45,014 nucleotides of DNA from a virus, in IMG/VR virus record IMGVR_UViG_3300010399_000014, positions 1 to 45,014 of that record. One strand, written 5' to 3'. Below are positions 1 through 38,413 of this stretch, piece after piece (positions within the stretch are counted from its first letter, which is position 1; every line of letters starts with the position of its first letter). The position numbers and the translations under genes are program-made. Below the pieces are notes generated by a model. It was not told the origin of the DNA and searched no databases. It worked only from the letters and a program-made list of their open reading frames with translations.

Positions 1-123
1 CGCCTACGGCTCCGACAGGCTACGCGTCGACGGACTACAAGTGCCGCCTGCCTGGCGCTTCGCGGACCGATTCGAGCGGCAGCCAGTATCTGATGCAAAT
101 CGAGACGGTGGACACAAGTAGCC
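1..123. repeat. Left copy of the 123-bp terminal overlap
   Basis: These bases are identical to the last 123 bases of the window (44892-45014). The tail-fibre reading frame runs through the overlap in phase from the right end to the left end. This shows that the contig is a circular or circularly permuted molecule written with an assembly overlap, and the unit length is 44,891 bp. A physical short terminal repeat is possible but less likely, because the overlap cuts through the middle of a gene and has the size of an assembler k-mer. Confidence 0.95.
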
Positions 124-491
124 TATACGTTTTGACGACTGGGACCAATACTACAACGACGGTTCAACTTGCAAGCGGGGCTATCGGCACCATTACGAGT
201 GGAACAAGTGTGGTTTATGCCGCAGTGTCCGTTGCGTCTGCCGTGCCTGTAGCGGTAGCGAAAAAAATCAATCTTATCGCCAGCACATTTGGCGGCTCGG
301 GGGTTCAATTGATTGCCGCCCCGAACGCCTCATATAGCGGATGGGATTCTTCCGCGCCGCCCCCATTGATGGCGTATGGCAGCAATCAGGATTCCTCATC
401 TGCGCAGTTCATCCTGGAAAGCAGCAATGTCTACTGCGCTTGCAATGGAGCTAGCAGCGGGTTGCTAAGTTGTTTCGGATGGGAGGAATAA
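1..491 (+). CDS. Tail fibre / receptor-binding protein, C-terminal part (continues from the right end of the window)
   Basis: This is the 3' part of the gene that starts at 43862. Joined across the circle (43862-44891 plus 1-491) it is 1521 nt and encodes 506 residues. In this part the first complete codon begins at base 3; the ATG at 93 is in the same frame but is internal. The segment is rich in Ser, Thr, Gly and Ala, as expected of a beta-rich distal fibre or receptor-binding domain, and ends in a Cys-containing stretch followed by GWEE. The DUF4376-type gene begins 1 nt after the stop, with an AGGAA-type ribosome site inside this gene's end. The receptor and the adhesin fold cannot be read from sequence alone. 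Confidence 0.85.
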   Translation, partial: PTAPTGYASTDYKCRLPGASRTDSSGSQYLMQIETVDTSSLYVLTTGTNTTTTVQLASGAIGTITSGTSVVYAAVSVASAVPVAVAKKINLIASTFGGSGVQLIAAPNASYSGWDSSAPPPLMAYGSNQDSSSAQFILESSNVYCACNGASSGLLSCFGWEE

Positions 492-492
492 A

Positions 493-912
493 ATGGGCTA
501 CGCAATCAACTCTACGCATACCGGATGGCGCGCCGTAGACTCCGCTGCAGACTTAGCTGCGAAAGAAACATTCAGCGCAGCGCTGCCCACACTGCCACCA
601 CCACCGCTGTCGTTGGTCGACGGCTACGCACAAGCTATCGCGCTACCCGTAACGATCACGACCCATGCTGGCGTGGCTAAGGTGTATCAGGCCGATGCAG
701 ACTCGCGCCAGAAAGTGCACGACATGCTCGCTGCGTATTCGCCAGCGGGCGCGCTTCCCGCCGATTTCTACTGGGTCGCTGCGGACAACACGCAAGTGCC
801 ATTCGTGCTGGCTGACTTGCAGGAGTTGGCCGCGGCGCTCGGCGCGCAGGGCTGGGCAGCGTTTCAGAAGCTGCAAACGCTCAAAGCACAAGGCGCGACG
901 ATCTGGGCGTGA
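493..912 (+). CDS. DUF4376-like tail fibre accessory protein
   Basis: 139 residues. The protein has a short N-terminal region, a proline patch (LPPPPLS, about residues 34-40), then a helical C-terminal domain with the pattern of DUF4376, a domain common in fibre-associated and fibre-assembly proteins of tailed phages (family assignment from memory). It lies directly behind the tail fibre gene with a 1-nt gap and a good ribosome site (GGGAGGAATAAA before the ATG). A role in folding or attaching the fibre is inferred from this position. No enzyme motif is visible. Confidence 0.7.
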   Translation: MGYAINSTHTGWRAVDSAADLAAKETFSAALPTLPPPPLSLVDGYAQAIALPVTITTHAGVAKVYQADADSRQKVHDMLAAYSPAGALPADFYWVAADNTQVPFVLADLQELAAALGAQGWAAFQKLQTLKAQGATIWA

Positions 913-978
913 CGGTTAATTTGTAACAAAAATAGCGGCCTCGCGCCTAGCGCGCTAACATATCGCGACGAGTGACAC

Positions 979-1260
979 ATGAGGAAAGAAATGACGCTGG
1001 ATGACTTCGCGCGAGAAGCCGCCGCGATCGCGCTCACGAGCAAAGCTTACGTCGTGGGCGGGGCCGCCGGGCTGCTCGCGTGGGCCATGTCGCTCAATTG
1101 GCTGGGCTTGGGCAGCGTGGTCATTGCCGCGCTCGGCCTGGGTGCGAATATCTACTTTCTCTGGCGTCGTGATCGGCGCGAAGAACGCGAACTCGCATCC
1201 CGCCTGCGCCTGAACAAGTTGGAAAGCGACGCGCTGCGCCGCGAGCAACGGAGCACCTGA
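979..1260 (+). CDS. Holin (two transmembrane segments, two possible starts)
   Basis: Small membrane protein expected to open the inner membrane so that the downstream endolysin can reach peptidoglycan. Two hydrophobic segments are visible (about residues 23-39 and 44-62 of the 93-residue form), followed by a highly charged, Arg-rich cytoplasmic tail, as in two-TM holins. Two in-frame ATGs exist, 979 and 991. The second has the better ribosome site (GAGGAAAG at 981-988) and gives 89 residues. The longer form adds Met-Arg-Lys-Glu, net +1 charge, which resembles the antiholin/holin start pair of lambda S. The stop overlaps the endolysin start by one base. Holin identity rests on size, topology and position; no catalytic motif exists for this class. 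Confidence 0.8.
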   Translation: MRKEMTLDDFAREAAAIALTSKAYVVGGAAGLLAWAMSLNWLGLGSVVIAALGLGANIYFLWRRDRREERELASRLRLNKLESDALRREQRST

Positions 1261-1751
1261 TGCCCGTTATCACGGCTGCCGAAGCTGGAAGCGCCAACCG
1301 GTGCGCCTTTCTGGACATGATCGCCTGGAGCGAGATTGGCCCGGCGCTCCTGACCGCATCCGACGACGGATATGACGTCATGGTCGGGTCGACTCCGCAA
1401 CACCCGCTGCTATTCACCGACTACACGCGCCATCCGGGCGTCCTGAACGCGCAGCTAAACTCCACGGCAGCCGGCCGTTACCAGTTGCTGTACCGGTACT
1501 GGCTGGCTTATCAGCGCTCGCTCGGGCTGCCCGACTTTTCGCCCTTGTCGCAAGACAAGATCGCACTGCAGCAGATCCGCGAACGCGGTGCGCTTGCACA
1601 CATCGACGGCGGCTATTTCGCGCTCGCCGTGGGCGCCTGCTCGTCGATCTGGGCCAGCCTGCCGGGCAACTCGTACAAGCAGCATACGAACGACTTGCAG
1701 TCGCTACAGCGCGCTTATCAGGGCGCGGGCGGCACGCTGGCCATCAACTGA
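1260..1751 (+). CDS. Endolysin, lambda R-type lytic transglycosylase
   Basis: 163 residues, close to the 158 of lambda R. It cleaves the MurNAc-GlcNAc backbone of peptidoglycan. The protein aligns along its length with lambda R: a FLDMIAWSE block with the catalytic Glu at residue 25, GYDVMVG, LFTDYTRHPG, the STAAGRYQLL segment, then LSQDKIALQQI and a C-terminal SSIWASLPG block. No signal peptide or SAR sequence is present, so export should depend on a pore-forming holin, consistent with the gene directly upstream, whose stop codon overlaps this start by one base. Confidence 0.95.
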   Translation: MPVITAAEAGSANRCAFLDMIAWSEIGPALLTASDDGYDVMVGSTPQHPLLFTDYTRHPGVLNAQLNSTAAGRYQLLYRYWLAYQRSLGLPDFSPLSQDKIALQQIRERGALAHIDGGYFALAVGACSSIWASLPGNSYKQHTNDLQSLQRAYQGAGGTLAIN

Positions 1752-1763
1752 TCCGGAGCTGTC

Positions 1764-2132
1764 ATGCCCATCATCAAACACCTGATCGACGCGGCCCGCG
1801 GCAAGCACCCCTTGAGCGCAAAACGCTCGAGCCATTGGCCGACTGTGCGCAAGCAGCATCTACAGCTGCATCCGACGTGCGAACTGTGCGGCGGCGGCGC
1901 AAAGTTGGAAGTGCACCACAAGCGGCCGTTTCACCTGCACCCCGAACTGGAACTAGATCCCGCGAACCTGATCACCCTTTGCGAAGCGGGTAAAGACGGC
2001 GTAAACTGTCATTTACTTTTCGGCCATCTGGGCAACTTCAAGAGCTTCAACGTGTCGGTGGACACAGACGCCCAGACCTGGCACGAGAAAATCGCCAACC
2101 GGCCCACGGCCGAACAAGGAACCGGATCATGA
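1764..2132 (+). CDS. HNH endonuclease
   Basis: 122 residues with a compact HNH fold: CELCG (about residues 39-43), the VHHKRPFH histidine block (51-58), the conserved DPANLITLC segment (66-74) and a final NCHLLFGH. The four Cys and His residues expected for zinc and metal binding are present. The gene has a CGGAG ribosome site and sits between the endolysin and small lysis-region genes, not next to terminase where many phage HNH proteins act in packaging. It could be a free-standing homing nuclease or a packaging/DNA-processing enzyme; the sequence does not decide. Its stop overlaps the next start. Confidence 0.85.
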   Translation: MPIIKHLIDAARGKHPLSAKRSSHWPTVRKQHLQLHPTCELCGGGAKLEVHHKRPFHLHPELELDPANLITLCEAGKDGVNCHLLFGHLGNFKSFNVSVDTDAQTWHEKIANRPTAEQGTGS

Positions 2133-2341
2133 ACCAAACGTCTCCCGCCGCCACCGGCACCACGGGCGCGGCCGTCGCGGCCCTCGTCGCCATCCTGTCT
2201 ACCCTGAACGCGCATTGGAATTGGGGCATCAACCCCGACGGCTTGGCCGCGATCGCCGGCGGCATGCCCGTCGCAGCGCACTGGCTCGCGCAGCAATACG
2301 CGGCGCGCCAAGCCGCGAAAAACGTCAAGGCCGCAGCGTGA
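2129..2341 (+). CDS. Small membrane protein of the lysis region
   Basis: 70 residues with two hydrophobic stretches (about residues 14-28 and 38-53) and a basic C-terminus ending KNVKAAA. ATGA overlap with the HNH gene upstream and TGATG overlap with the lipoprotein gene downstream indicate translational coupling in one transcript. The size, two-segment layout and location among lysis genes fit a second holin, antiholin or other small lysis regulator, but there is no diagnostic motif. Ribosome site AAGGAA lies 6-11 nt before the ATG. Confidence 0.6.
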   Translation: MNQTSPAATGTTGAAVAALVAILSTLNAHWNWGINPDGLAAIAGGMPVAAHWLAQQYAARQAAKNVKAAA

Positions 2342-2661
2342 TGCTTATCCGCGCCGCAGTGGCCGCTTGCGCGTTGACCGCGTTGGCCGGCTGTGCGGGG
2401 CAGGCAACCTATCGCATACGCCCGTACCGAGTGCCAGGCAGTGGTGATCTGATCTGCTGCGAGGCCTTGGTTACGTCCAGTCGGGACGTCGCGCAGGTTA
2501 CCGTCCACGCCACAAAGACGCCCGACGGCGGGTACACACTCGATCTGACCGAGACGGGCATATCAGCCAGCGCGCCGATCCAGGCGCAAAACGGCGCGGT
2601 GTCCGCTGTCGCGGGCGCAGTTTCCAACACGGCCGCCGCTGCGGTCAAATTCATACCGTGA
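2341..2661 (+). CDS. Small lipoprotein (possible spanin-like protein)
   Basis: 106 residues from the ATG that overlaps the previous stop; an upstream in-frame ATG at 2215 lies inside the preceding gene and is unlikely. The N-terminus is a type II signal peptide with the lipobox LAGC (Cys at residue 20), so the mature protein should be anchored in the outer membrane. The last 20 or so residues are Ala/Val-rich and weakly hydrophobic. Because no Rz/Rz1 pair is seen, a unimolecular spanin is one possibility; the C-terminal segment is short for a membrane anchor, so this is only a suggestion. Confidence 0.6.
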   Translation: MLIRAAVAACALTALAGCAGQATYRIRPYRVPGSGDLICCEALVTSSRDVAQVTVHATKTPDGGYTLDLTETGISASAPIQAQNGAVSAVAGAVSNTAAAAVKFIP

Positions 2662-2669
2662 GGTCCAAC

Positions 2670-3068
2670 ATGAAAAGCGTCATTCGGGTTATCGTCGCGA
2701 CGTCAATCGTCGTGGCCGCCGCCGCGCTGGGCGGCTGCGCAACCACCACGCAAACGGCCGCGAAAGTGCAAGTGGCCGTGGCCAAGGCTTGCCCGATCGC
2801 CAAAGCGACCGTCACGGCGCTACAGGGCGTCCCGAATCTGTCGGCCAAGCTGCAAGCCGACTTGGCGCAAGCCGCCCCGCTCATCACGACCGCCTGCGCA
2901 GGCAATGCCACACTGGACACCACGACCGCGCAGTCGCTCGTGCAGACCGGCATTCCCGCCATGATCGCCGACGTGCAAGCTTCCGGCATGGCCGAATCGA
3001 CCAAGCAAACCGTGGTCGGCGCGCTGACCGCGACGAGCATCGTTTTGCAGGTCGCGTTGGCGCAGTAG
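2670..3068 (+). CDS. Lipoprotein of the lysis region
   Basis: 132 residues. An in-frame GTG at 2658 exists, but the ATG at 2670 has GAGGT at a good distance and places the signal peptide correctly: two basic residues, a long hydrophobic core, and the lipobox LGGC with Cys at residue 23. The mature part is Ala/Thr/Val-rich with two further cysteines (near residues 41 and 79) and looks largely helical. Together with the previous gene it gives two consecutive lipoproteins downstream of the endolysin. Function unknown; outer-membrane disruption or superinfection exclusion would both fit the location. Confidence 0.6.
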   Translation: MKSVIRVIVATSIVVAAAALGGCATTTQTAAKVQVAVAKACPIAKATVTALQGVPNLSAKLQADLAQAAPLITTACAGNATLDTTTAQSLVQTGIPAMIADVQASGMAESTKQTVVGALTATSIVLQVALAQ

Positions 3069-3072
3069 TCGC

Positions 3073-3495
3073 ATGGCGCAGTTTCACACGCCGCTGATCG
3101 TCGAAAACGTCAGTGACACGGACGCGGACGGGCGCGGGATCTGGCGCCTGCGGCAAATGTTTGTCTACGAGTCAGACCTGCTGGGCCGACTTGTCATCAT
3201 CGAACAGGGCTTTCTGACTGACTACGCGAGCGTGCCGCGCGCGCCTTTCGCGTATTGGTTGTTGGGCGATACCGCGCACAAAGCGGCCGTCGTTCACGAT
3301 TGGCTTTACCACCACCACGAAGTCTGCGACGAGCGCACTGCAAACCGCGTATTTTTGGAGGCCTGCGCGGTGACGCGTATCCCGGCCTGGCGCCGGTGGC
3401 TGCTTTATCTTGGCGTCATGCTTGGGGGTCGTTCCAGCTGGCAGGAAGACGGTCGTAGTGATGGCCATCGGATTGTCGACGGCCGCATCGTCTAA
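3073..3495 (+). CDS. DUF1353 family protein
   Basis: 140 residues. The DUF1353 signature is clear: GFLTDYASVPRAP (about residues 46-58), then a KAAVVHDWLYHH block (about 74-85) and a helical C-terminal half. DUF1353 proteins are common in phages near lysis or tail genes and have no established biochemical function. The gene is the last of the long rightward arm and overlaps the convergent RusA gene by 4 bp, with no terminator between them. No convincing ribosome site is seen before the ATG; it begins 4 nt after the previous stop. Confidence 0.8.
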   Translation: MAQFHTPLIVENVSDTDADGRGIWRLRQMFVYESDLLGRLVIIEQGFLTDYASVPRAPFAYWLLGDTAHKAAVVHDWLYHHHEVCDERTANRVFLEACAVTRIPAWRRWLLYLGVMLGGRSSWQEDGRSDGHRIVDGRIV

Positions 3496-3869
3496 CGGGC
3501 GATTTCGCGGATCTCGATGGTGACGCGCCCGCGCCCTGCATCCGGCGCGCCGCGATAGACGTGTCCCACGTCGATCTGCGAGTCGTCCAACCACACGCGC
3601 TCCTTCGTCAGAAAGTCGCACAGCAGCTTTTCCCGGTTGAAAATGTCCCACGCTTTGGCGCCCATGGCGGCGGGCGCGTGCAATGTAATGGCTACCTCCA
3701 AGCGCCCGCGCAGCGGTGGCGTTACGCGGCCCGCAGGCAGCGCGTTGTGGGCGGCTTTGAGCCACGCACGGGCTTGTGCCGACAATACGACGCGCGCCGC
3801 CACGGCGCGCCAGATCGCGTTGACAGAAGGCGGAAAGGGTAGCGTGTAAGTGTGCGGCATAAACGACAC
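3492..3869 (-). CDS. rusA: RusA-type Holliday junction resolvase
   Basis: 125 residues. RusA enzymes are homodimeric endonucleases that cut four-way DNA junctions, here probably to process replication or recombination intermediates before packaging. Visible family features: PFPPSVNAIWR near the N-terminus, then WDIFNREKLLCDFL and WLDDSQIDVG (about residues 72-102), which carry the acidic residues that bind metal. The frame starts at a GTG (3869), with an in-frame ATG three codons later (3860); neither has a strong ribosome site, and a perfect hairpin ends exactly at the GTG. It is third in the leftward arm after the DUF2800 and DUF2815 genes. Confidence 0.9.
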   Translation of the reverse strand: MSFMPHTYTLPFPPSVNAIWRAVAARVVLSAQARAWLKAAHNALPAGRVTPPLRGRLEVAITLHAPAAMGAKAWDIFNREKLLCDFLTKERVWLDDSQIDVGHVYRGAPDAGRGRVTIEIREIAR

Positions 3870-3894
3870 GGGCCGCTAATATTGTCAGCGGCCC
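3870..3894 (-). promoter_or_regulatory. Hairpin abutting the RusA start codon
   Basis: A perfect 8-bp inverted repeat (GGGCCGCT / AGCGGCCC, 9-nt loop) lies between the stop of the DUF2815 gene and the GTG start of RusA. It has no following T-run on the minus strand, so it is not a classical terminator. Lying against the start codon it could limit RusA translation or stabilise the upstream message. Function is inferred. Confidence 0.5.
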
Positions 3895-3913
3895 GCGAGG
3901 TCAGTACGTCAGA

Positions 3914-4579
3914 CTACGCAGCAGGCTGCGCGAAGGGATTGGCCGCGGCCGCACCTTGAGCGAAGGGATTGGCCGCACTCGCCGGCGTGTTAGCCGGGGC
4001 CGGGGCTGCTGCGGGCGATTGGCTGGCGGGCGCGGGTGCTGCCGCCTTGGGGTCGGCGAACTTGGCGAAAGCGCTGGCCGAATCATTGCCGATCGACAGA
4101 CGCTCGCCGCCTTGACCTGCGTCCATGATGCCGGCCAAGTTGAACGATACGCCGCGGCCGCCTTGCGGGTGGGTCCACGGGAAAGCCGTCAGATTGGCGC
4201 GCACGCGCTTGCCCGCGTAGAACGTGGACTTGATGGCGGCTTGTCCATCGGGCGCGTCTTGGCGCAGTTGTTCGCCTTTGGCGCTGTACACCTCGGGGGC
4301 GAAGCGCGTCACGGCTCGGATGATGAACCAATCGACCGGAATGCCGGGCAACGGTTTTTTGCGGGCGCTATTGCGCTCGACGCCGACTTGGACATCGGGG
4401 TGCAGGCCGCCGAACAGACTTTGCGCAGCAGCCTGCGCAATAGCTTGCAGGTCGTTGCCGGCTTCGGGCGCCATGGCCAGAAGCGCGAAGAACTCCAGCG
4501 GATTGCCGGCCTTGAGCTTGTTGGCCTGGGGCGTCGCAAGCGCAAAATGGGTGAGAATGGCGATGTGATCGGAAATCAT
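3914..4579 (-). CDS. DUF2815 single-stranded DNA-binding protein
   Basis: 221 residues from the ATG at 4579 (AAAGGT ribosome site); a longer in-frame extension is not supported. The protein matches the DUF2815 family of phage ssDNA-binding proteins, here directly downstream of a DUF2800 nuclease, its usual partner. The body includes KKPLPGIPVDWFIIRAVTRF and an RVRANLTAFPWTHPQGGRGVSFNLAGI segment. The last 45 or so residues are an Ala/Pro-rich linker with two NPFAQ repeats encoded by a duplicated DNA stretch. Instead of the acidic tip typical of many SSB proteins the tail ends in PAA. It should coat ssDNA during phage replication. Confidence 0.8.
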   Translation of the reverse strand: MISDHIAILTHFALATPQANKLKAGNPLEFFALLAMAPEAGNDLQAIAQAAAQSLFGGLHPDVQVGVERNSARKKPLPGIPVDWFIIRAVTRFAPEVYSAKGEQLRQDAPDGQAAIKSTFYAGKRVRANLTAFPWTHPQGGRGVSFNLAGIMDAGQGGERLSIGNDSASAFAKFADPKAAAPAPASQSPAAAPAPANTPASAANPFAQGAAAANPFAQPAA

Positions 4580-4628
4580 AGTAGTACCTTTAAAAGTGAC
4601 TGAAAAAGTGCGCAACGCACCCTGAATA

Positions 4629-5825
4629 CTACTCGCCCTTAACCTGGGCGTCAACGATATTTGAATATTTTTTGAATAACTTGGCGATCTGCGACGGCGT
4701 GCCGGGATCGACTAATTTGATGGACCGCGTGGGCGACCCGCGCGCGATGAGTTCGTCACGCGCGAAAGCGGGCAGCTTGTCGAACACCGTGCTGAGCGCT
4801 TTCGGCTCGAGTAGATCGGTGCGGCCCATGGCCAGCAACGTTAGCGTGACCTGCGCGTCGTCTTTCCACTTGCGCCGGCCGTCGGATGTCGTCACCTGCA
4901 AGCGCGCGTGGCCGGCCTGAGCCAGCAACTCGATGCGTTCTTCGACGTCTTCCCAGAAACCCTTGAAAGCGCTACGGGCCGCCCACAACTGCACGACTTC
5001 ATCGTCTGTCATGCTGTGCAAACTACGCTCTCCGGTGTAAACGGCGAGCGCTGCAGCCGCAGCATTGTGCGTGCGCGGGCATATCGGCTTGGCGCGGCAA
5101 TACCTGCACCAATCGCCGGCGTTGGGGTTCTGGCCCGTCGCGGCGTCCACTGCGGCCACCTCACGCCTGAGTTTGTTGCGCTCGGCCGGCAACCAGTCCG
5201 ACGTGAACATCTCGGATTGGCCGGCCAATCCGATCACGCGCCGCGGCTGGAAAATGGCAACGCAAAGCTCGGCAGGTTCCAGCCCGAACGTCTCGGCCCC
5301 CGCAACCACATAGGCCGCCAACTGCTCGTTTGTGTTTTCGGCGTCGCCTACCGCGACGTCCTCGAAACCGTACTTGTAGTCGACCACGACTAGGCGCCGC
5401 AACTCCGGCAGCCACACCAGGCAATCGGCCGTGCCGAATAACTGCGGGTGAATCGACGGGATAGCTACGCGCTGCTCGATCGTGACGTGCGCCGCAGCCC
5501 CTGCCGGGATTAGCCCGCGAATGAACTCGACGTAAGCGCGCCCGTGCCGACGCATGTCCTCATTCCACGCCTCGGGCGTACGTCCTTTGAGATTGAGGCC
5601 TTCGGTGACGGGAATGTCCAGCGGATCACCAGGAAGCGCGCCGGGCAGCCCGAACGCTTGCCGCACATAAAACTCGGCCACCGAATGCGCGGCCGTCCCT
5701 TCGGCCGCGTAAGGCGAGGTCTTGTCGGCGAAGCCGGCAGAAAGCAAGACGCTATCGGGGCAGTTCTTCCAGCGCTTGCGCGCCGAGAACGACAATTTGG
5801 AATGCACGACGGCGGGATTTGACAT
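4629..5825 (-). CDS. DUF2800 family nuclease (PD-(D/E)XK, Fe-S cluster type)
   Basis: 398 residues from the ATG at 5825. A longer frame from 5858 is unlikely because that ATG lies inside the predicted -10 box. DUF2800 proteins are Cas4/AddB-like exonucleases. Visible here: LSFSARKRWKNCPDS at the N-terminus with the first cluster Cys, AAEGTAAHSVAEFY, the core motif VVVDYKYGFEDVAVGDAEN (catalytic Asp and Lys), and the cysteine group CRYCRAKPICP, which completes a four-Cys Fe-S site. It is first in the leftward arm from copy A and probably works with DUF2815 and RusA in replication-linked recombination. Confidence 0.85.
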   Translation of the reverse strand: MSNPAVVHSKLSFSARKRWKNCPDSVLLSAGFADKTSPYAAEGTAAHSVAEFYVRQAFGLPGALPGDPLDIPVTEGLNLKGRTPEAWNEDMRRHGRAYVEFIRGLIPAGAAAHVTIEQRVAIPSIHPQLFGTADCLVWLPELRRLVVVDYKYGFEDVAVGDAENTNEQLAAYVVAGAETFGLEPAELCVAIFQPRRVIGLAGQSEMFTSDWLPAERNKLRREVAAVDAATGQNPNAGDWCRYCRAKPICPRTHNAAAAALAVYTGERSLHSMTDDEVVQLWAARSAFKGFWEDVEERIELLAQAGHARLQVTTSDGRRKWKDDAQVTLTLLAMGRTDLLEPKALSTVFDKLPAFARDELIARGSPTRSIKLVDPGTPSQIAKLFKKYSNIVDAQVKGE

Positions 5826-5853
5826 GGCGGACTCACGTGGCGAATGAACCGCA

Positions 5854-5882
5854 ATCATAACAGCCTATCACGCAAAAGTAAA
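5854..5882 (-). promoter_or_regulatory. Predicted sigma70-type promoter for the DUF2800-DUF2815-rusA arm
   Basis: On the minus strand TTTACT and TATGAT are separated by exactly 17 nt. The -10 box covers the ATG at 5858, and transcription would start near 5847, giving a 22-nt leader before the ATG at 5825. The same TTTAC(A/T)-17-TATGAT arrangement occurs at 38772-38800. It lies just outside the left edge of repeat copy A. Confidence 0.55.
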
Positions 5883-6051
5883 TAAACGGCGACGCGGGAC
5901 GGTACGGACGACAACCCGGAAAGTACGGAGGATCCTCCGTAAAGTCCTCCGTAAAGCGTGTCCGAACGTCAATTCCATGACTAAACGTAATGGTGCGTTG
6001 CAGCGTAAAAATGTTGCTAATTGTAAGAATCGACCATTTTACGGACGACAT

Positions 6052-6089
6052 TCCGTTGATGTTCCGTTAATCTTCCGTACTTCCTCCGT
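6052..6089 (+). repeat. Helically phased TCCGT array
   Basis: TCCGT occurs at 6052, 6063, 6074 and 6085, an exact 11-bp period, each preceded by T or C and followed by T or A. One-turn spacing places the sites on one face of the helix, as in operator or iteron arrays bound by an oligomerising protein. All four copies are intact in repeat copy B (30779-30816). Confidence 0.7.
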
Positions 6090-6130
6090 ATTGTCCCTTA
6101 TTTATATTCCTTCCTCCTACTCTACTCTAA

Positions 6131-6194
6131 CCTATTGATATTATTATATTTATTATAGATAGATAGATAGTAATAGAGATAAGATAAGAGTGAG
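6131..6194. other. AT-rich block between motif clusters (possible unwinding element)
   Basis: This 64-bp stretch contains only a few G or C bases and includes a run of GATA tetranucleotides near 6157-6170. It is flanked by the phased TCCGT array on one side and by two ACGGA sites (6196, 6205) on the other. The arrangement resembles a DNA-unwinding element of an iteron origin. The same block, with one change, is in copy B. Confidence 0.45.
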
Positions 6195-6239
6195 TACGGA
6201 GGATACGGAAGAGAATATAGGTAAAAAACTATCCAGGAC

Positions 6240-6279
6240 GCAAAAGTGAATTTAGTAGGGGTACTAAATCCATTTTCGC
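6240..6279 (+). promoter_or_regulatory. Conserved 40-nt hairpin in the repeat element
   Basis: An inner perfect stem ATTTAGTA / TACTAAAT closes a GGGG loop (6250-6269) and is extended outward by a further, imperfect 10-bp stem. In copy B one base differs, turning a G-C pair into a G-U pair on the plus-strand RNA, so the fold is kept as RNA. This suggests a structured leader for rightward transcripts, or a DNA cruciform at an origin. It lacks a T-run and is not a typical terminator. Confidence 0.45.
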
Positions 6280-6402
6280 ATTACCGAGAAAGTGTGGCGA
6301 CAAGTCTCCTCCGTTAAATGGTTTGTAAACTGTGCAATGGCTATCAGTTGGTCAGCATTCATAGTTTCCTTCTATTTTACTTTTAGCTAACATCCGGGCA
6401 AT

Positions 6403-8940
6403 ATGATCAGAAACCGCTGCGAACCACTCGCCGCGACTCACGGGGCAGGCATGCAAACGGACATTCGATTTACCCAGATCACAGCAACGAATTGTGAGCT
6501 GACCAAGACCTACACGCTGGTTACAAACGGTGTGCACAGCAGCGCCATCGCCCACATGACCGAAGGCCACGCCCGCATTCTGTCGCTACCCTCGATCAGC
6601 AATCTGGGCGCGGTCCTGGATCTGCTGCAGTCGAATCAGGCGATTACCTGCGGCGTCCCGGCCAAGGGCGACACCGCCCTGACCACGCGTGCTGGCGCAG
6701 ATTTCCGTCCCGATGCGGTAGCGCGCACGAACGAGGCGTTTGTTTTCCCCTACGGCCCGGCGCTGTTCCCGATCGATGTCGATGTTGACGGCGACACGTT
6801 TCGCAGCGTGGACGACGTGCTGGACGCGCTGGAGGCCTGCTCGCCCTGGATGCGCAACATCTCGCGGGTTGCGCGGCCCTCGTCCTCGTCCTATGTAACC
6901 GGGCGTGGGCTGCGCGGTGTGCACGTTTACTTGCCCGTCAATCGCGGCGTAGATGTGCCACTTCTGGCCAAACGCATGCAGATCGAGCAATGGGCGGCCG
7001 GCCGCGGTTTTGTGCGCATCAGCAAATCGGGGGCGCTTTTGGTGCGCCAGCTATCAGACGCTATGGTTTACCAGCCCTCGCGGCTCATGTTTGAGGCGCC
7101 CCCGGTGCTGCACGACCTCGCGCGCGAGATCCCGCCCGAGGCGCGGTTCATCGAGCGGGCCCCGCAAGTCGTCGGCCAACCGGCCAAATATCGCACTCCT
7201 GACGGAATGCTGGACGTGCAACTGATGCCTGCCGTGCGCGAGTTGGACGAACGCCGCTTCGTGACCGCAGTGCGCGCCGCCAAGAATGCGCGTCGGCGCG
7301 AGGCCAAGACGGTTGCGATCGACTGGCAGAAGCAGAATGCCATTGCGGCCGGGCTGGATCCGGCCGAAGGCGAGCGCTTGGGCCTACTCGCCACGCGCGC
7401 GCTAGGCGACAAGGCGTTGCCGCGTAGCTGGTTGCTACGTATTGCCGGGCTGCCCGATCCGGTGTCGGTGGCCGATGTGCTGGCCAACCTGGACGCAGCA
7501 CTCGGGCGCCACTGCGCCGACCCGTTCGACACGTTTCGCTTTGATCTGGCGGACAAGCACATGCACAAGGCTGAGATCGTGCGCATGGGCGACACGCCGG
7601 GCATCTGGTCGCATAAGCTGCAGGAATTCTTTGCGTTCACGGCGGCCGACGCCGCAGACTTGGCCAGCCCGCTGGATTTGGCGGCAGAGAAATTGTGCGG
7701 CCTGGTCGAGTATCCCGAACCGGCCGGCCGCAAGGCTGCGCCGTTTGTCAACGTCATGCACGGTCTGGAGCTGCTGCTGCGCGAAATCGACGCGCTGCCG
7801 CAATTTAACGTGTGCACGTCATCCGTCGAGGCTGAAGACGTGCCGCCGACCGGGCGTCTAGTCGAGGCGCTGTCTCGGATTGGTTGCGCTAACGTGACGC
7901 CCGGCACTGTCGAGCGCGCCGTGTCGGCGCTGGCCGAGATGCGCCGTGTCGACCCCTGGAAAGACAAGATTCTGAATTTACCCCCCTGGGACGGCCAGAA
8001 ACGACTTGAGGGCGTGTTTTACGACGTGTTTGATGCCGAGGTAGCACCTCACGTTCCCAACGTCTCCTGCGCCCTTTTTGCAGGTATCGTCATGCGGCAG
8101 TTGCGCCCGGGCGTTCCGGCCCCCGTCATTCCCGTGTTAATCGGCGCGCAGAACTTAGGCAAAAGTCGCTTCGTGACCGAAGTGGCCCGCGCGCTGGGCT
8201 TTCCCCTGCCGGCTTCGATTGCGTTCGGCGATGATCGGCGCATGTCCATGGCCGCGTCGCGTTCAGTTATCTGCGAGCTGGCCGAGATGTCCGGCCTGTC
8301 TAAACGCGACGCCGACGATGTCAAGCGATGGGTCACGGATGACGTGGACGTGTACCGGCGTCCTTATGAAAAACAGGAAGAAGCGCACCCACGCCGGTTT
8401 GTCGCTTGCGGTTCGGCCAACAAGTACGAGATCAACCGCGATGAGACAGGCAACCGGCGCTTTGGCCCGATCTTCATTCGCGCCGCGATGGCGCCGCATT
8501 GGATGGTGGAACTGCCCCAGATATTCGCAGAGGCCAAGCAGCGTTTTTGCGAGAACGAGTCCGACTATTACGCGTTGATCCGTCGCGCCGCCGAGTCAGT
8601 CTATGAGTACAGCCAGGTGGCGATGAGCCGCGGCGAGGGCATCCCCGTGTCCGACCTGGACGAGCTGTTGCCGCCAATCCTCACTAAAGCCCTGAACCGC
8701 GATGGGCGCGGCCGCGTACAGGCCGCAGCCATCCGTCAAGCGCTCGACCAGATCGTGTCGGGACGGCGCTTTTCAGCCCAGGACGTCGCGCGCTGGCTGA
8801 CTGCTCGCGGCTGGACTGCGGGCAAGGACGGACTCGGTATGCGGCATTACGTCGCCCCGTCAAATTTCGTTGACATAAACGAGAAAGTCACTATACTAGA
8901 ACAACACAATCCATTTACAACGGGAGCAAAAGTAGCATGA
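6403..8940 (+). CDS. VapE-type primase-helicase replication protein
   Basis: 845 residues. The N-terminal half resembles an archaeo-eukaryotic PrimPol domain, with the acidic IDVDVDG motif near residue 123 and a GRGLRGVHVYLPV segment. The C-terminal half is a virulence-associated E (VapE) helicase domain: Walker A GAQNLGKS near residue 581, Walker B ICELAEMSG about 40 residues on, and the arginine motif ETGNRRFGP. It probably primes and unwinds phage DNA. It is first in the rightward arm from copy A. The ATG at 6403 has no good ribosome site and overlaps a TATGAT hexamer; the in-frame ATG at 6451 (ACGGGGCAGGC before it) may be the true start, giving 829 residues. Confidence 0.9.
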   Translation: MIRNRCEPLAATHGAGMQTDIRFTQITATNCELTKTYTLVTNGVHSSAIAHMTEGHARILSLPSISNLGAVLDLLQSNQAITCGVPAKGDTALTTRAGADFRPDAVARTNEAFVFPYGPALFPIDVDVDGDTFRSVDDVLDALEACSPWMRNISRVARPSSSSYVTGRGLRGVHVYLPVNRGVDVPLLAKRMQIEQWAAGRGFVRISKSGALLVRQLSDAMVYQPSRLMFEAPPVLHDLAREIPPEARFIERAPQVVGQPAKYRTPDGMLDVQLMPAVRELDERRFVTAVRAAKNARRREAKTVAIDWQKQNAIAAGLDPAEGERLGLLATRALGDKALPRSWLLRIAGLPDPVSVADVLANLDAALGRHCADPFDTFRFDLADKHMHKAEIVRMGDTPGIWSHKLQEFFAFTAADAADLASPLDLAAEKLCGLVEYPEPAGRKAAPFVNVMHGLELLLREIDALPQFNVCTSSVEAEDVPPTGRLVEALSRIGCANVTPGTVERAVSALAEMRRVDPWKDKILNLPPWDGQKRLEGVFYDVFDAEVAPHVPNVSCALFAGIVMRQLRPGVPAPVIPVLIGAQNLGKSRFVTEVARALGFPLPASIAFGDDRRMSMAASRSVICELAEMSGLSKRDADDVKRWVTDDVDVYRRPYEKQEEAHPRRFVACGSANKYEINRDETGNRRFGPIFIRAAMAPHWMVELPQIFAEAKQRFCENESDYYALIRRAAESVYEYSQVAMSRGEGIPVSDLDELLPPILTKALNRDGRGRVQAAAIRQALDQIVSGRRFSAQDVARWLTARGWTAGKDGLGMRHYVAPSNFVDINEKVTILEQHNPFTTGAKVA

Positions 8941-9507
8941 AAAACGTCAAATATGAATTCGTTGAAGGCGACGAAAAGGTCATCGCCCCTGGCGTAGTCG
9001 TCAAGCGTATACGCGCTACGGTCGCTATTGCCGCGACACTATGGACGCCTGCAGGTGTCCGGCAACGCGTGGGTGTACGGCGACGCGCGGGTGTCCGGCA
9101 ACGCGCAGGTGTACGGCAACGCGCGGGTGTCCGGCAACGCGTGGGTGTACGGCGACGCGCAGGTGTCCGGCAACGCGTGGGTGTACGGCGACGCGCAGGT
9201 GTCCGGCAACGCGCGGGTGTACGGCAACGCGCGGGTGTACGGCAACGCGCGGGTGTCCGGCGATGGTCTCATTTTCTGGGCCAGCAAGGTCGGCAGCGAA
9301 AACGGGACGCTGACCGTCTACAACGCCGAGGGCGACATGCTCGAGGTCACGCGTGGATGCTTCCGCGGGACGGTCGAGCAGTTCCTCGCAGCAAGTGCGA
9401 AAAAACACGATAGTCGCACCCAGCATGAGTACAGATTGTTGATCGAGGTCGCGCGCTCGCGCATCGAAGCCGCACGCGAGACCACCGAATTGCCGGAACA
9501 GCCATGA
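8937..9507 (+). CDS. Hexapeptide-repeat (left-handed beta-helix) protein, apparently frameshifted
   Basis: Two reading frames together make one recognisable protein. The start at 8937 (ATGA overlap with VapE) encodes KYEFVEGDEKVIAPG and KRIRATVAI, the N-terminus of a phage family that continues with hexapeptide repeats. After about 9025 the matching sequence is in the +1 frame: twelve V-(S/Y)-G-(N/D)-A-x repeats and then a globular end (SENGTLTVYNAEGD, RGCFRGTVEQFLA, EYRLLIEVARSRIEAARE) to the stop at 9507. The usual linker with a GDLGGWIE-like block is missing. A deletion with frameshift, or an assembly error, is likely; no slippery site is visible. The stop is coupled (ATGA) to the next gene. 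Confidence 0.6.
9055..9270 (+). repeat. Twelve 18-bp tandem repeat units
   Basis: Units of the form GTG-(TCC/TAC)-GGC-(AAC/GAC)-GCG-(TGG/CGG/CAG) are repeated without interruption. Each unit encodes one hexapeptide of a predicted left-handed beta-helix. Units differ mainly at the codons for Ser/Tyr, Asn/Asp and the last position. Unit number could change by slippage without altering the frame. No stop codon occurs in other frames through this block, so long unrelated frames there are artefacts. Confidence 0.9.
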
Positions 9508-15051: not shown

Positions 15052-15330
15052 ATGAACGCCCCCGTCGATTACATGACGCTGCCGCTGGAGAAATTCACCA
15101 TCCGCGATCTGACGGATGCCATTGGCATCGCCGAGTCGGCGCGCGTTCTGGATACCAGCACGCGCGCGATCTACACGCAGCGCAACACGCGCCGCATCAG
15201 CGTCGACCGTATGCAAAAACTGGTCGCGCACCTGCGCACGAACGAGCGGCACTACCGCGAGCGCCTGGCCATCAAACGTGACATGCAGGCGCGGGCCGCC
15301 GCGACGGTTCAAGTGCTCGCACAAGCCTGA
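15052..15330 (+). CDS. Small putative DNA-binding regulator
   Basis: 92 residues, basic. Residues 16-55 (FTIRDLTDAIGIAESARVL, then STRAIYTQRNTRRISVDRMQKLV) look like a helix-turn-helix of the kind that reads a site through a TRAIYTQ-type recognition helix. The gene has its own promoter with tandem repeats that overlap the -10 and ribosome site, an arrangement typical of autoregulation. No closer family can be named. It is the best candidate in the genome for a transcription factor acting on shared promoter motifs. Ribosome site AGGAG. Confidence 0.55.
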   Translation: MNAPVDYMTLPLEKFTIRDLTDAIGIAESARVLDTSTRAIYTQRNTRRISVDRMQKLVAHLRTNERHYRERLAIKRDMQARAAATVQVLAQA

Positions 15331-24966: not shown

Positions 24967-26009
24967 GCGCGTATTACAACGAAATCGAACCCTTTGCAGC
25001 CCAATGGCTGCGCAACCTGATCGCGGCGGGGCACATCGCCCCAGGCGACGTGGATGAACGGAGCATAGAAGATGTACGACCCGACGACTTGCGCGGATAC
25101 GCCCAATGCCATTTCTTTGCCGGCGTCGGCGTCTGGTCCTACGCCCTGCGACTCGCCGGCTGGCCCGATGACCGGCCTGTTTGGACGGGTTCCTGTCCGT
25201 GCCAACCTTTCAGCGCGGCAGGTAAAGGCGCTGGGTTTGCTGACGAGCGGCACCTTTGGCCGCACTTCCATTGGCTCATCCAGGAGTGCCGCCCTCCAGT
25301 CATCTTTGGAGAGCAGGTTGAAGCAGCGATTAAACACGGCTGGCTCGACCTTGTTCTAGATGACCTGGAAGGAAGTGGCTACGCCTTCGGGGCGACAGGT
25401 ATCCCTGCTGCGGGCGTCGGTGCACCGCATCCCCGCCACCGACTTTACTTCGTGGCCGACAGCAGCAGCCAGGGATTACAGGAGCGAATCGGCGACGGAC
25501 GAATTCAACAAGAAACGTTGGGAGCATCCCCGCGGCAAACCGCTGTCGGCAGTTGCCGCCTTAGCCGGCTGGCCGACCTGCACGGCGACGGACGCTCACA
25601 GGGGCGCGAAGGCCGCGCGCCCTTGGGACACCGGCCGACCGCTCAACCAGATTGTGGCTCTGGCCGCGTGGAATACACCAGCAGCCTCGGATGGAATGGG
25701 CGGAAAGCGCCCGCATCCGGACACATCGATGACGGGGCAACACCCCGACGGGCGCAAGATAAACATGGGGTTGCCCTCTCAGGTGCACCTGGGCTTCATC
25801 AACACGGAGCCGGCCCGATTAACGGCTTCTGGCGAGATGCTGATTGGCTCTTCTGCCGGGATGGAAAGTGGCGGCCAGTTGAACCCGGCACATTCCCGCT
25901 GGCTCATGGGGCTCCCGCCCGAGTGGGACGCCTGCGCGCCTACGGCAATGCCATCAACGCGCAAACTGCGCGCGTCTTCATCGAAACGGTAATGGCAGGC
26001 ACGCCTTGA
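24963..26009 (+). CDS. C5-cytosine DNA methyltransferase
   Basis: 348 residues, coupled to the clamp gene by ATGA. Motif [18 protein letters not shown] (51-67), motif [11 protein letters not shown] with the catalytic Cys at about residue 80, a motif VI position with GEQV instead of ENV, motif [15 protein letters not shown], and a C-terminal motif [10 protein letters not shown]. The region from residue 160 on is rich in Arg, Gly and Asp and is also open in a second frame (25360-25992). It probably modifies phage DNA against host restriction. The 3' end overlaps the convergent Mu F-like gene by 32 bp. Confidence 0.88.
25360..25992 (+). CDS. Overlapping second-frame protein (alternative methyltransferase C-terminal frame)
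   Basis: 210 residues read in the +1 frame inside the methyltransferase gene. Unlike ordinary shadow frames it carries segments known from independently annotated phage proteins: repeated WPT(A/C) motifs, a [18 protein letters not shown] stretch, and [19 protein letters not shown] followed by [10 protein letters not shown], which resembles the end of other cytosine methyltransferases. The main frame in the same DNA encodes [16 protein letters not shown] and a motif X. Both frames therefore look conserved. The ATG at 25360 has no clear ribosome site, so expression may need coupling or frameshifting. Recognition is from memory. Confidence 0.5.
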
Positions 26010-28626: not shown

Positions 28627-30078
28627 TTATCGAATCCTTGACAAAATCTCTTTCGTAATCATACCGGCAATCGGCGAGCGCAGGCACAATTGCTGCAGTG
28701 CAATCGTCATGCAATCGACGGTATCGTCGTTTTTGACGTCAGGGAAAGACGTGATTTCGGCCACCCATTGCGCGATGCTCGGGTCTTCGCTCGGGTCGGG
28801 CAAAAACACGCTATTGTTCGCCCACACCCAGGAGACAGCGTGGGCCCGCGCTTCCTTGCTGCCTAAGGGCGGCACGCCTTCGACGCCGACAAAGTGTTTC
28901 TGCAGCATCTCAATGAGCGCGGCACCATTGGCCGCTTCTTCTATGTAAATCCGGTGCGTGTCGGGGTGTTTACCGCGCAGGTCAGCAATGGCCTGCGCGG
29001 TCGCCACGAACCCTAGGCGCTCCCGGCGTTTGTCGATCAGCCAGACATTGTCGATCGCATCCAGGCCCCAAACGCCGACGGCAACAAAGTCGCTCGTTTT
29101 TGCGTCCTTGAACGTCGCGTCGACCGTGATGATCTTGCGCTTGAAACTGCGCGGCAAGTCGGCGCGCTTGTAATGACGTACGTGCGCGCGCGGGAAAATC
29201 GCGCCCACATCCGCTAGCGGCGTCTGCTGGAACATCGCAGCCCACCACATGGCCGAAATATTGCGCTTGATCTCGCGCAGCTTCGTCTCGTCGTGCAGAT
29301 GCGGTACGAGCGCGCCTGGCGGCAGCCCAGGGTCATAGCCTAGCTCATCAGGTAGGTTCAGCGCAGGAAACGACAGCAGCGTGAAATTGGTTTGCGACTC
29401 AAACACCCGGCGCACGTGCGCGAGTAGATCCTGCGCCGACCAGGGTGTCCCGATGATGACCACGCCCGAGCGTTGTTGCAGGCGCGTTTGCAGCACCGAG
29501 TCGAACCAATCGCGGTTGCGCTCCTGAATGGTCTCGGAAAGCGCCTCTTCAGCGTTTTTTACCGCGTCGTCGACGATGCCTACTTCGAGCGGGAAGCCAG
29601 TCAGGCCGCCACCAATGCCCACGCCGCGCAACCATCCGCCGCCGGGCACTTCCAGGCCGTCTGAGACGTTGTCGATCCCTTTGAACCCGATCAAGGAAGC
29701 GTACGGGAAAATCTCGCGGTAGATCGGCTCGGCCATGATGGCCTGGGCGTCGCGCCGGTTGCGATTGGCCAAGCCCTGCGCGTAGGAGGCGCAGGCGATG
29801 CGCACGCCGGGCAGCTCGCGTAGCAGTCGCCCCATAAGATAGGGAGGCAAGCAGCGCGAAATAAGGGACGATTTGCCGTGCTGCGGGGGCGCAGTCAACA
29901 TCAGGACAGGACGCTTGCCGGCGATCAAGTCTTCGACAAACCGGTCAATCGCACGGCACACGGCCGCCGAGAAAGCCGAGTGTTTATAGCGCGGCCGATG
30001 CACGGCGGACACGAACGCGGCAAAACTCGTGCGCGCCGCCTCAACGAGAAATTCGACGGGGTCGACGACTTGCGTCAT
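28627..30078 (-). CDS. terL: Terminase large subunit
   Basis: 483 residues. ATPase motifs: Walker A APPQHGKSS (63-71), adenine-side KHSAFSAAVCRAIDRF before it, Walker B VGIVDD (166-171). Nuclease domain: TVDATFKDAKTSD (Asp at 320), RIYIEEAANG (about 377-386) and VKNDDTVDCMTIAL with Asp near 455. It packages phage DNA into proheads and cuts it. The circular map with no defined end inside a late gene suggests headful packaging, but the sequence alone does not prove it. Four-base overlap with the small subunit gene. Confidence 0.93.
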   Translation of the reverse strand: MTQVVDPVEFLVEAARTSFAAFVSAVHRPRYKHSAFSAAVCRAIDRFVEDLIAGKRPVLMLTAPPQHGKSSLISRCLPPYLMGRLLRELPGVRIACASYAQGLANRNRRDAQAIMAEPIYREIFPYASLIGFKGIDNVSDGLEVPGGGWLRGVGIGGGLTGFPLEVGIVDDAVKNAEEALSETIQERNRDWFDSVLQTRLQQRSGVVIIGTPWSAQDLLAHVRRVFESQTNFTLLSFPALNLPDELGYDPGLPPGALVPHLHDETKLREIKRNISAMWWAAMFQQTPLADVGAIFPRAHVRHYKRADLPRSFKRKIITVDATFKDAKTSDFVAVGVWGLDAIDNVWLIDKRRERLGFVATAQAIADLRGKHPDTHRIYIEEAANGAALIEMLQKHFVGVEGVPPLGSKEARAHAVSWVWANNSVFLPDPSEDPSIAQWVAEITSFPDVKNDDTVDCMTIALQQLCLRSPIAGMITKEILSRIR

Positions 30079-30563
30079 TTTGCGCTGTCCAGCAGCCCGA
30101 GCGCGGCAAGCTCCTTGAGCTGTTCGACATACTGCTCGCGCTGCTCTTGCGATATTGTCTGGGCAAGCGGCGCCGCGTTGGCGATCTCGACCACGGCTTT
30201 GTCAAAGCCCAGCAGCTTGACCAGCATGGCAAAGGACTTGTCCTTGCTGCGAAACCGCGGCACGTACTGGCCATGCTTGAAGTCGAACCCCTCGATGAGT
30301 CGGCCGACTCGCGGCGTGCGCAGCTTCGCTTGGTCGAGTTCGTAATGCTCGACGGCGCCTACGCCGCCACACGTGGCGCAGGTCATGAGCGTGCCGTCGT
30401 CGGTCACGGTTCCGTCGCGCCGCGCTTCGCCGCCCACCGTGCCGGCGCCCGCGCATGCCGGGCACGTCACGGTCTTGATGTGCAGAAGCGCCCCTAGGTT
30501 TTCGTTGATGAGCGAAACCAGATCGGCAACAAGCGACGTATGGACGGGGGCAAGAGGTTCCAT
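30075..30563 (-). CDS. Putative terminase small subunit
   Basis: 162 residues from ATG 30563; the longer in-frame extension from 30641 runs into the repeat element and is unlikely. The gene is first in the leftward arm from copy B and overlaps terL by 4 bp, the standard place for the DNA-recognition subunit. It contains two CPAC / CATC-type cysteine pairs (TVTCPACAGAG and MTCATCGGVG, residues 33-72), a zinc-ribbon not found in classic small terminases, and a helical C-terminal half (QEQREQYVEQLKELAAL). Identity is inferred from position. Confidence 0.65.
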   Translation of the reverse strand: MEPLAPVHTSLVADLVSLINENLGALLHIKTVTCPACAGAGTVGGEARRDGTVTDDGTLMTCATCGGVGAVEHYELDQAKLRTPRVGRLIEGFDFKHGQYVPRFRSKDKSFAMLVKLLGFDKAVVEIANAAPLAQTISQEQREQYVEQLKELAALGLLDSAK

Positions 30564-30626
30564 GCGGCAAAGTGTAACGCAAAGGTTAACCCGCGCGCCA
30601 TCTAAGCACCCGAATGCACCAAGTTT

Positions 30627-31057
30627 CGGTACAGACGACAACCCGGAAAGTACGGAGGATCCTCCGTAAAGTCCTCCGTAAAGCGTGTCCGAACGTCAAT
30701 TCCATGACTAAACGTAATGGTGCGTTGCAGCGTAAAAGTGTTGCTAATTGTCAGAAACGGCCATTTTACGTACGACATTCCGTTGATGTTCCGTTAATCT
30801 TCCGTACTTCCTCCGTATTGTCCCTTATTTGTATACCTTCCTCCTACTTTACTCTAACCTATTGATATTATTATATTTATTATAGATAGATAGCTAGTAA
30901 TAGAGATAAGATAAGAGTGAATACGGAGGATACGGAAGAGAATATAGGTAAAAAACTATCCAGGACGCAAAAGTGAATTTAGTAGGGGTATTAAATCCAT
31001 TTTCGCATTACCGAGAAAGTGTGGCGACAAGTCTCCTCCGTTAAATGGTTTGTAAAC
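30627..31057. repeat. 431-bp divergent intergenic element, copy B
   Basis: Second copy of the element at 5900-6330 in the same orientation, offset by 24,727 bp, with no net indel. Substitutions cluster in two places (30738-30771 and 30831-30849) and leave ten of the twelve ACGGA/TCCGT cores, the palindrome and the phased array intact. It lies between the small terminase gene (start 64 bp to the left) and the first baseplate gene (start 62 bp to the right), so it mirrors the placement of copy A. Short frames inside it are not supported as genes. Confidence 0.95.
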
Positions 31058-31083
31058 CGCATATCGTTGCGTGTGGCGCGGCT

Positions 31084-31112
31084 TGATCGGCGTGCTGCTG
31101 CAGTGCTACGAT
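31084..31112 (+). promoter_or_regulatory. Candidate late rightward promoter beside copy B
   Basis: TTGATC and TACGAT are 17 nt apart and the -10 box ends 6 nt before the ATG at 31119. If used, the message would be nearly leaderless; no ribosome site is seen before that ATG. It lies just outside the right edge of repeat copy B, as the copy A promoter lies just outside its left edge. Confidence 0.4.
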
Positions 31113-31118
31113 TGACCC

Positions 31119-31496
31119 ATGGACACGTTGTCGCTCACCCCCGCCTGGGATTTGGATGTCGACGCCTACGGCAACTGGGCGACGATCGGCGACGCCACGC
31201 CGGGCGACATGACCGGGCCGGGCATGCGGCTTGCACAGGACGTGGCCACGCGCTGCCTGTCCTGGCGCGGCGAGGTCTACTACGACGCCACGCAAGGCAT
31301 CCGCTACGAGCAGATCCTAGGCCAAGCCCCAAACTTGGCGCTCATCCAGAGCACGTTCGCCACCGAAGCGCTAAAAGTGCCGGGCTGCGCGCAGGCCATT
31401 CCGAATTTCACGTTCACCGGCGGCCGTGCGCGCACGCTGTCCGGCCCGCTCACTGTGGCGGATTTCGCGGGCAATGGCGGTCAGGTGCTGTTTTGA
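31119..31496 (+). CDS. Baseplate wedge-region protein (gp25/W-like small protein)
   Basis: 125 residues. The pattern WDLDVDAYGNWATI, MRLAQDVATRCLSWRGEVYYD and a TQGIRYEQILGQ segment is shared with small baseplate proteins found at the start of tail operons in this phage type, related in layout to gp25/W-like wedge proteins. It is first in the rightward arm from copy B. Its stop overlaps the TTG start of the next gene. Confidence 0.7.
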   Translation: MDTLSLTPAWDLDVDAYGNWATIGDATPGDMTGPGMRLAQDVATRCLSWRGEVYYDATQGIRYEQILGQAPNLALIQSTFATEALKVPGCAQAIPNFTFTGGRARTLSGPLTVADFAGNGGQVLF

Positions 31497-31792
31497 CCTG
31501 GGTAAACATTCCGCTGTCCACGCAGCCGAATCAGACCTTCGGCGCGCAACTTGACGGCGCCTACGCGCAGATCACGCTGACCACGACCGACTACGGCCTC
31601 TTTGCCGACGTGATCTACGACGGCGTTCCCGTCGCGCTCGCGCGCTTGTGCTTGGATCGCACCGACATCAACCCGAATCGTTATCTGGGGCTGCCGCAGA
31701 TGCTGTGTTTTGCGGATCTGCAAGGCACGACCGACCCTGTCGCCGCAGGGTTCGGCACTCGCTATCTGCTGTTGTACGGCACGCCCCCTTGA
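31493..31792 (+). CDS. DUF6983-like baseplate/tail protein with TTG start
   Basis: 99 residues from TTG 31493, which overlaps the preceding stop (TTGA), analogous to the ATGA couplings elsewhere. There is no ATG or GTG start in frame near this point. The sequence (NIPLSTQPNQTFGAQLDGAYA, LFADVIYDGVPVA and ADLQGTTDPVAAGFGTRYLLLYG) matches the small beta-rich protein that usually follows the gp25-like gene in related phages. Structural baseplate role is inferred. The stop codon forms part of a TTGACA box. Confidence 0.65.
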   Translation: MTWVNIPLSTQPNQTFGAQLDGAYAQITLTTTDYGLFADVIYDGVPVALARLCLDRTDINPNRYLGLPQMLCFADLQGTTDPVAAGFGTRYLLLYGTPP

Positions 31793-31817
31793 CAAGCGCT
31801 GCGCGGCCACTGATACT
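31789..31817 (+). promoter_or_regulatory. Promoter overlapping a stop codon, upstream of a terminator
   Basis: TTGACA (31789-31794) includes the TGA stop of the previous gene; GATACT follows after 17 nt. Transcription would start near 31824 and meet the terminator at 31846-31883, which gives a predicted transcript of about 60 nt unless termination is bypassed. Confidence 0.5.
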
Positions 31818-31845
31818 GAAAGCTCATGTTCCTTTGTCCCTGGTG

Positions 31846-31883
31846 CCCGGCCGAAATCCCTTGTTTCGTGCCGGGTTCTTTTT
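31846..31883 (+). terminator. Rho-independent terminator
   Basis: Stem CCCGGCCGAAA pairs with TTTCG(T)GCCGGG (one bulged T, 7-nt loop) and is followed by TTCTTTTT. It closes the short operon 31119-31792 and lies directly behind the promoter at 31789. Confidence 0.85.
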
Positions 31884-31888
31884 GCTGC

Positions 31889-31917
31889 TTGCGTTTATCT
31901 TTCGTTTAGTTTATAGT
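31889..31917 (+). promoter_or_regulatory. Predicted promoter after the terminator
   Basis: TTGCGT and TATAGT are 17 nt apart. The first gene downstream starts at 31951 behind AAAGGGACAAGAAATC, giving a leader of about 27 nt. It would restart transcription into the tail chaperone, tape measure and baseplate genes. Confidence 0.5.
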
Positions 31918-31950
31918 TAAATCTCCAATTGACTAAAGGGACAAGAAATC

Positions 31951-32289: not shown

Positions 32290-32290
32290 C

Positions 32291-33249: not shown

Positions 33250-33251
33250 CC

Positions 33252-33845: not shown

Positions 33846-33846
33846 C

Positions 33847-35644: not shown

Positions 35645-35671
35645 ATGGACTTATTCAACCAGGAGCGGAAC

Positions 35672-36301: not shown

Positions 36302-36303
36302 CG

Positions 36304-37225: not shown

Positions 37226-37250
37226 GTAGACTTACGTTCAAGGAGCAATC

Positions 37251-38409: not shown

Positions 38410-38413
38410 TGGC

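Follow-up and report, generated by a model that had tools for sequence, protein, structure and literature searches.

The region around positions 6052–6089 of a viral genome raises the question of what a dense, helically phased array of one short word does, and why the genome carries it twice. The stretch of DNA analysed, hereafter the window, is the whole of IMG/VR virus record IMGVR_UViG_3300010399_000014, an assembly of 45,014 bases that is complete and of circular type, with a 123-bp end repeat. Judging from its sequence, the window is a complete Bcep781-like myophage. Its placement rests on the primase, helicase, family A polymerase, sheath, TerL, and baseplate proteins (identity to Bcep phages is 55%–56% for the primase and 67% for TerL), and it has the common gene set and order of the group (Naesvirus/Kantovirinae). 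About 20 orthologues are shared with Bcep phages in the same blocks, with the exonuclease-baseplate segment inverted. We propose that the array belongs to a duplicated element, here called R, and that its two copies, A and B, are probably iteron replication origins read by the VapE primase-helicase encoded beside copy A.

Other repeats were also observed in the window. An 18-bp tandem repeat (8997–9317) is present in about 13 or more copies within the open reading frame at 8937–9413 and gives a six-residue protein repeat. In the tail region, the open reading frame at 35645–36301 contains a 92-bp direct repeat (35680–35771 and 35881–35972, 86%, 201 bp apart).

Anatomy of the duplicated element

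Element R consists of an array and an AT-rich core, and both copies lie between divergent genes. Copy A (5900–6330) separates the gene for a PD-(D/E)XK exonuclease (DUF2800; 4629–5858, minus strand) from that for the VapE-type primase-helicase, our proposed initiator (6403–8940, plus strand; translation may in fact begin at the ATG at 6451). Copy B (30627–31057) lies between a TerS-like gene upstream of TerL (30075–30641, minus strand; the true start is probably the ATG at 30563) and the gene for a baseplate wedge protein (31119–31496, plus strand), the first of the rightward late operon. The two copies have the same orientation and 97.2% identity over 431 bp, with 12 differing positions. The primase gene has copy A on its 5′ side, and copy B lies about 22 kb away from this gene. 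The protein in the TerS position shows a weak likeness to anti-TRAP and DnaJ-type zinc-ribbon domains.

The pentamer TCCGT/ACGGA is strongly concentrated in R. Our recount of copy A gave 12 pentamers in 431 bp, the number in the first-pass annotation. The number expected by chance is about 0.8 from base composition, and dinucleotide shuffles of A (n = 5000) had a mean of 1.44 and a maximum of 7. The next densest 431-bp stretch elsewhere in the genome had at most three, and TCCGT is not enriched over the whole window (76 observed versus 93 expected), so the array reflects local concentration rather than abundance. A genome scan for the nonamer TCCTCCGTA, suggested earlier as a check on site specificity, placed all 10 exact copies in the record within A or B.

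The sites in R bracket the AT-rich core. This core (6088–6187) has 25% GC and is the lowest 100 bp of a genome with 61% GC; its counterpart in B (30824–30923) also has 25%. On the left are four TCCGT sites (6052–6089, plus strand; 30779–30816 in B) at the exact 11-bp spacing originally described (6052, 6063, 6074, and 6085), and four equally spaced sites occurred in 0 of 5000 dinucleotide shuffles of A. On the right is a tandem pair of TCCTCCGTA and TCTTCCGTA (6195–6212, minus strand; 30922–30939 in B), and the bracketing arrangement is the same in B. We also recovered the previously noted 18-bp palindrome TACGGAGGATCCTCCGTA (5924–5941 in A, 30651–30668 in B) and tandem pair 12 bp apart (5936 and 5948); the palindrome and a further TCCTCCGTA 12 bp on together occupy 5924–5953 (30651–30680 in B). 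Outlying sites are TCCTCCGTT (6307–6315, plus strand; 31034–31042 in B) and TCGTCCGTA (5903–5911, minus strand), the B copy of which is abolished by one substitution. A search of viral contigs for the exact 18-bp palindrome returned no match.

Evidence that the word is under selection comes from related phages rather than from comparison of A with B. Ten of the 12 pentamers are indeed retained at matching positions in copy B, but this retention does not on its own indicate selection, with two of the 12 differing positions falling in pentamers and about 1.7 expected. We dropped the argument from A/B conservation because the two copies were recently homogenised. Word conservation in relatives is better evidence: with three phage groups pooled (eight Bcep copies, six copies from relatives G002–G004, and the window's nonamers), none of 137 word columns was variable compared with 57 of 966 other columns (P = 4e-4). 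The eight Bcep copies contributed 0/57 versus 15/261 variable columns, and the six G002–G004 copies 0/35 versus 30/319. As read from these sequence patterns, the array is almost certainly a site of protein binding. A dense, site-specific, and helically phased array should bind protein cooperatively, so this part of the initial interpretation stands, but the candidate binders need changing.

Element R in related phages

Paired elements at the same positions are a family-wide feature. Self-comparison showed that each relative with sequence for both divergent junctions has its own element R twice, once per junction. The pairs are direct in Bcep1 (93.5%), XapPhi2 (98.5%), G001 (88%), and G002–G004 (96%–97%) and inverted in KPhi1 (99.5%) and G007 (98%), while in PhiXhv1 and G005 only 79 and 50 bases, respectively, could be aligned between R copies. 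Between distant relatives R is unalignable, and a DNA similarity search of phage records with R found no match, which we attribute to R evolving too fast. Among closely related phages, paralogous copies of R resemble each other about as much as orthologous ones do, which is concerted evolution.

The AT-rich core is shared across the family, and the word is specific to each phage or clade. In all 14 genomes with both junctions, including that of the window, the two R copies are the two lowest-GC 100-bp segments. Where words are clear, they are private to a phage or clade, lie in the same places, and are confined to R. The word TCCTCCGTA is common to the window and G001, and exact copies inside R account for 14/14 of ATCTGTCA in Bcep1, 10/10 of GGTGGGAT in G005, 8/8 of ACAGACGA in G007, and 8/8, 9/9, and 9/9 of CCCTCCGTAC in G002–G004. 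Both the AT core and the duplication are present in the Xanthomonas relatives, but no clean repeated word was found in them.

Paired repeats are already published for four of these Xanthomonas relatives. BsXeu269p/3, KPhi1, MYK3, and phiXaf18 have 197-bp inverted repeats that are described as possible recombination sites (PMC9968065). We checked KPhi1 and phiXaf18, where the repeats are the same element at the same two junctions. The word array, AT core, origin reading, and family-wide pattern do not appear in the accessible part of that publication.

Among relatives, R and the segment that separates its copies occur in varying orientations. This is as expected of a site that is indifferent to direction, which supports the origin reading. 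The exonuclease-to-baseplate block runs in opposite directions in the Bcep1/Xanthomonas type and the window type. Compared with Bcep1 and the Xanthomonas phages, the window has its B-to-A segment (1–6330 plus 30627–45014) inverted, even though the repeats on either side of it are direct. Two local features of relatives were also seen: a 375-bp tandem duplication (98%) after the polymerase gene in KPhi1 (locus L021, 5890–6644) and, as judged by eye in G001 (locus L026, 44845–45250), what seems to be an additional XRE-type HTH reading frame located between exonuclease and R.

Candidate readers and alternative roles

Of the two proteins named as possible binders in the first-pass annotation, the VapE primase-helicase is the best candidate, with its gene directly beside A, and the protein encoded at 15052 is an unlikely reader. 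In all relatives checked, the primase gene adjoins a copy of R. The helicase part of the window's protein resembles SaPI PriRep1 (PDB 7pds, E = 2e-29 by sequence and 4e-40 by profile); this structure, solved with DNA, is its only clear solved relative and the source of the top fold matches. Structure prediction gave a C-terminal winged-helix domain at approximately residues 747–821, in a model with pLDDT mostly 70–86 in this domain, 61 overall, and a poor helicase part. We consider this predicted domain the best candidate for reading the array. Recognition of iterons by the C-terminal domain is described for SaPI Rep and Cch2, the latter with the pentamer AAGTG (PMC7581432). Across phages, the primase recognition helix and the word showed no co-variation beyond overall divergence, and helix identity followed overall identity.

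The second candidate is a small Cro-like HTH protein (phrog_17223; 15052–15330, plus strand) that is conserved in the group. Its predicted structure is a confident small fold, a five-helix HTH, and a fold search with this model returned only weak HTH/Cro-like matches (E > 0.6). Since its recognition helix hardly changes between phages with entirely different array words, this protein more likely reads another, conserved operator.

Separate elements were observed in the flanks of the relatives and the window. A palindrome, CGATAG-N7-CTATCG, occurs in late-gene flanks of several relatives (L020, 16287–16305; L025, G001 25245–25263; L029, 286–304; L039, G007 16293; L040, G007 35676). It ends about 20 nt before a TACACT box, with its centre near −42, the class II activator position. 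We rejected it as the array word, as it is a separate element that is absent from the window's junctions; it may be read by the conserved HTH protein of the 15052 type. Before the primase gene, the window has CTATC-N14-CATAG (6341–6364), and G001, G003, and G004 have CTATC/CTATT-N14-GATAG in the same place, possibly an early-gene operator.

Promoter-like boxes at both junctions lie outside R. A canonical sigma-70 scan of the junction gave nothing above chance, and the boxes were identified by comparing gene-proximal flanks among relatives. The exonuclease operon has TTTACT-N17-TATGAT (5854–5882, minus strand), which would place the exonuclease start downstream of the ATG at 5858, and the primase gene is preceded by a conserved TATTTTACTTTT...TATGAT (6373–6406, plus strand), in which the exact promoter boxes are uncertain. 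At copy B, the TerS operon has an extended −10-like box, TTGCGTTACACT, that is conserved in relatives (30571–30582, minus strand), and the baseplate operon has TTGATC-N18-TACGAT (31083–31112, plus strand). Boxes of early and late genes differ and fall outside the duplicated part, and the deposited promoter annotations of phiXaf18 likewise flank its core. Because the boxes are outside it, R is not simply a promoter but the part common to both hubs that lies between the promoters.

Starting from the observed anatomy, statistics, and conservation of the arrays, and from the kinship of the primase to a self-loading helicase, we infer a binding partner, melting, and initiation, as well as the possible firing of both copies. 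Phage-specific iterons with the core TCCTCCGTA would lie on either side of some 100 bp of AT-rich DNA that melts easily and would be bound by the VapE primase-helicase through its C-terminal winged helix. The protein would assemble on the phased sites, open the AT core, load its own helicase ring, and prime synthesis in both directions. Both copies may fire, or one may be a required partner site, as crr is for the P4 ori. Recombination between the R copies would keep them alike within a genome, while the word would change between lineages. Cumulative GC skew in the window showed no clear switch at A or B.

The main rival is that R is a shared activating or repressing array, at which one phage regulator acting on both copies would control four outward operons, early and late. 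We regard this as rather unlikely, although several observations are consistent with it. R lies between divergent promoters at both hubs, every main operon begins there, cooperative regulators typically have phased sites upstream of promoters, and in A the exonuclease −35-like box has its nearest site about 20 bp upstream. Several points count against an origin: an enhancer would also be AT-rich and lie between divergent promoters, two near-identical origins are unusual, GC skew gives no clear switch at either copy, word and primase recognition helix do not co-vary beyond overall divergence, no clean word is seen in the Xanthomonas relatives, and SaPI origins are downstream of rep rather than upstream. 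However, R cannot set timing, as the side of it that is turned towards an early gene at copy A of the window is turned towards a late gene at copy B. Additionally, the recognition helix of the small HTH candidate stays constant while the words change, the CGATAG-N7-CTATCG palindrome of several relatives, about 20 nt before TACACT, looks like a better late-gene operator, and regulation leaves the genome-wide AT maximum without a reason. We favour an origin over an operator because the AT maximum is bracketed by sites, the promoter-like boxes are outside R, and the arrangement is family-wide.

The remaining alternatives fare less well. Iteron initiators (Rep proteins) are often autoregulators, and promoter-like boxes abut R on both sides, so the primase-initiator on its iterons could both fire replication and regulate the flanking promoters; this dual role appears improbable, as the early boxes resemble ordinary sigma-70 promoters that need no help. 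The inverted pairs in KPhi1, phiXaf18, and G007 and the exonuclease-baseplate segment inverted between lineages would fit a recombination site that inverts or exchanges the segment between copies, as proposed for the Xanthomonas 197-bp repeats (PMC9968065). We find this very improbable: copies are direct in the window and most relatives, direct repeats cannot invert a segment, and recombination accounts for the likeness of the copies but not for private word arrays or the AT core. A packaging (pac) or partition site within R seems the least credible of all, since although one copy adjoins the TerS-like gene and headful packaging is presumed for the group (PMC13190192), the second copy is 20–25 kb from TerS, PhageTerm analysis of Xanthomonas relatives found no terminal repeats or cohesive ends and mapped no site (PMC13190192), and no partition genes were present among the proteins scanned.

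Comparison with satellite replication origins

The arrangement in the window resembles that of P4, in which one word is clustered at two separate loci and nowhere else. As a positive control, an unsupervised word scan of P4 (GenBank NC_001609) returned GGTGAACA as the top word, found only in the annotated ori and crr (six and five copies), with neighbours often 9–11 bp apart. The same scan of the window gave the same picture, with ACGGAGGA clustered at A and B. In P4 the octamer lies on both strands and the alpha primase-helicase is its reader. However, the sequence and layout of ori differ from those of crr, whereas A and B share 97% identity, and the window's helicase module is VapE-like.

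Likenesses are also found with the origins of PICIs, all of which are reported to have an AT-rich core between two groups of short repeats (PMC6092414). R likewise has two iteron sets flanking an AT-rich region that would melt, an element-private word confined to it (10/10 copies of TCCTCCGTA), and an adjacent gene for a helicase of the Rep/Pri-Rep kind, the VapE primase-helicase matching 7pds. The helicases are related and self-loading, with a C-terminal DNA-binding domain that is a predicted winged helix here. In contrast, the SaPI origin is directly 3′ of rep, whereas copy A is upstream of its gene, and R occurs in myophages of about 45–48 kb, as two near-identical copies per genome between divergent operons. 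Given this upstream position and a reader that is a predicted one, we suggest that R works like a PICI origin rather than that it is one.

More tentatively, and with appreciably less confidence than for the window itself, we suggest that Bcep781-like phages in general may have two near-identical, orientation-independent, satellite-type iteron origins, one per divergent hub, with gene conversion, a repeatedly re-invented word, and operons co-directional with forks moving away from both. If so, replication in these phages would be directly testable in a group whose relatives are studied for phage therapy and crop protection, and the family would offer a natural series of initiator/word pairs for studying how origin specificity changes. 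This type of origin has so far been described mainly in phage satellites, and a doubled version of it in free-living myophages would connect the replication of satellites with that of phages.
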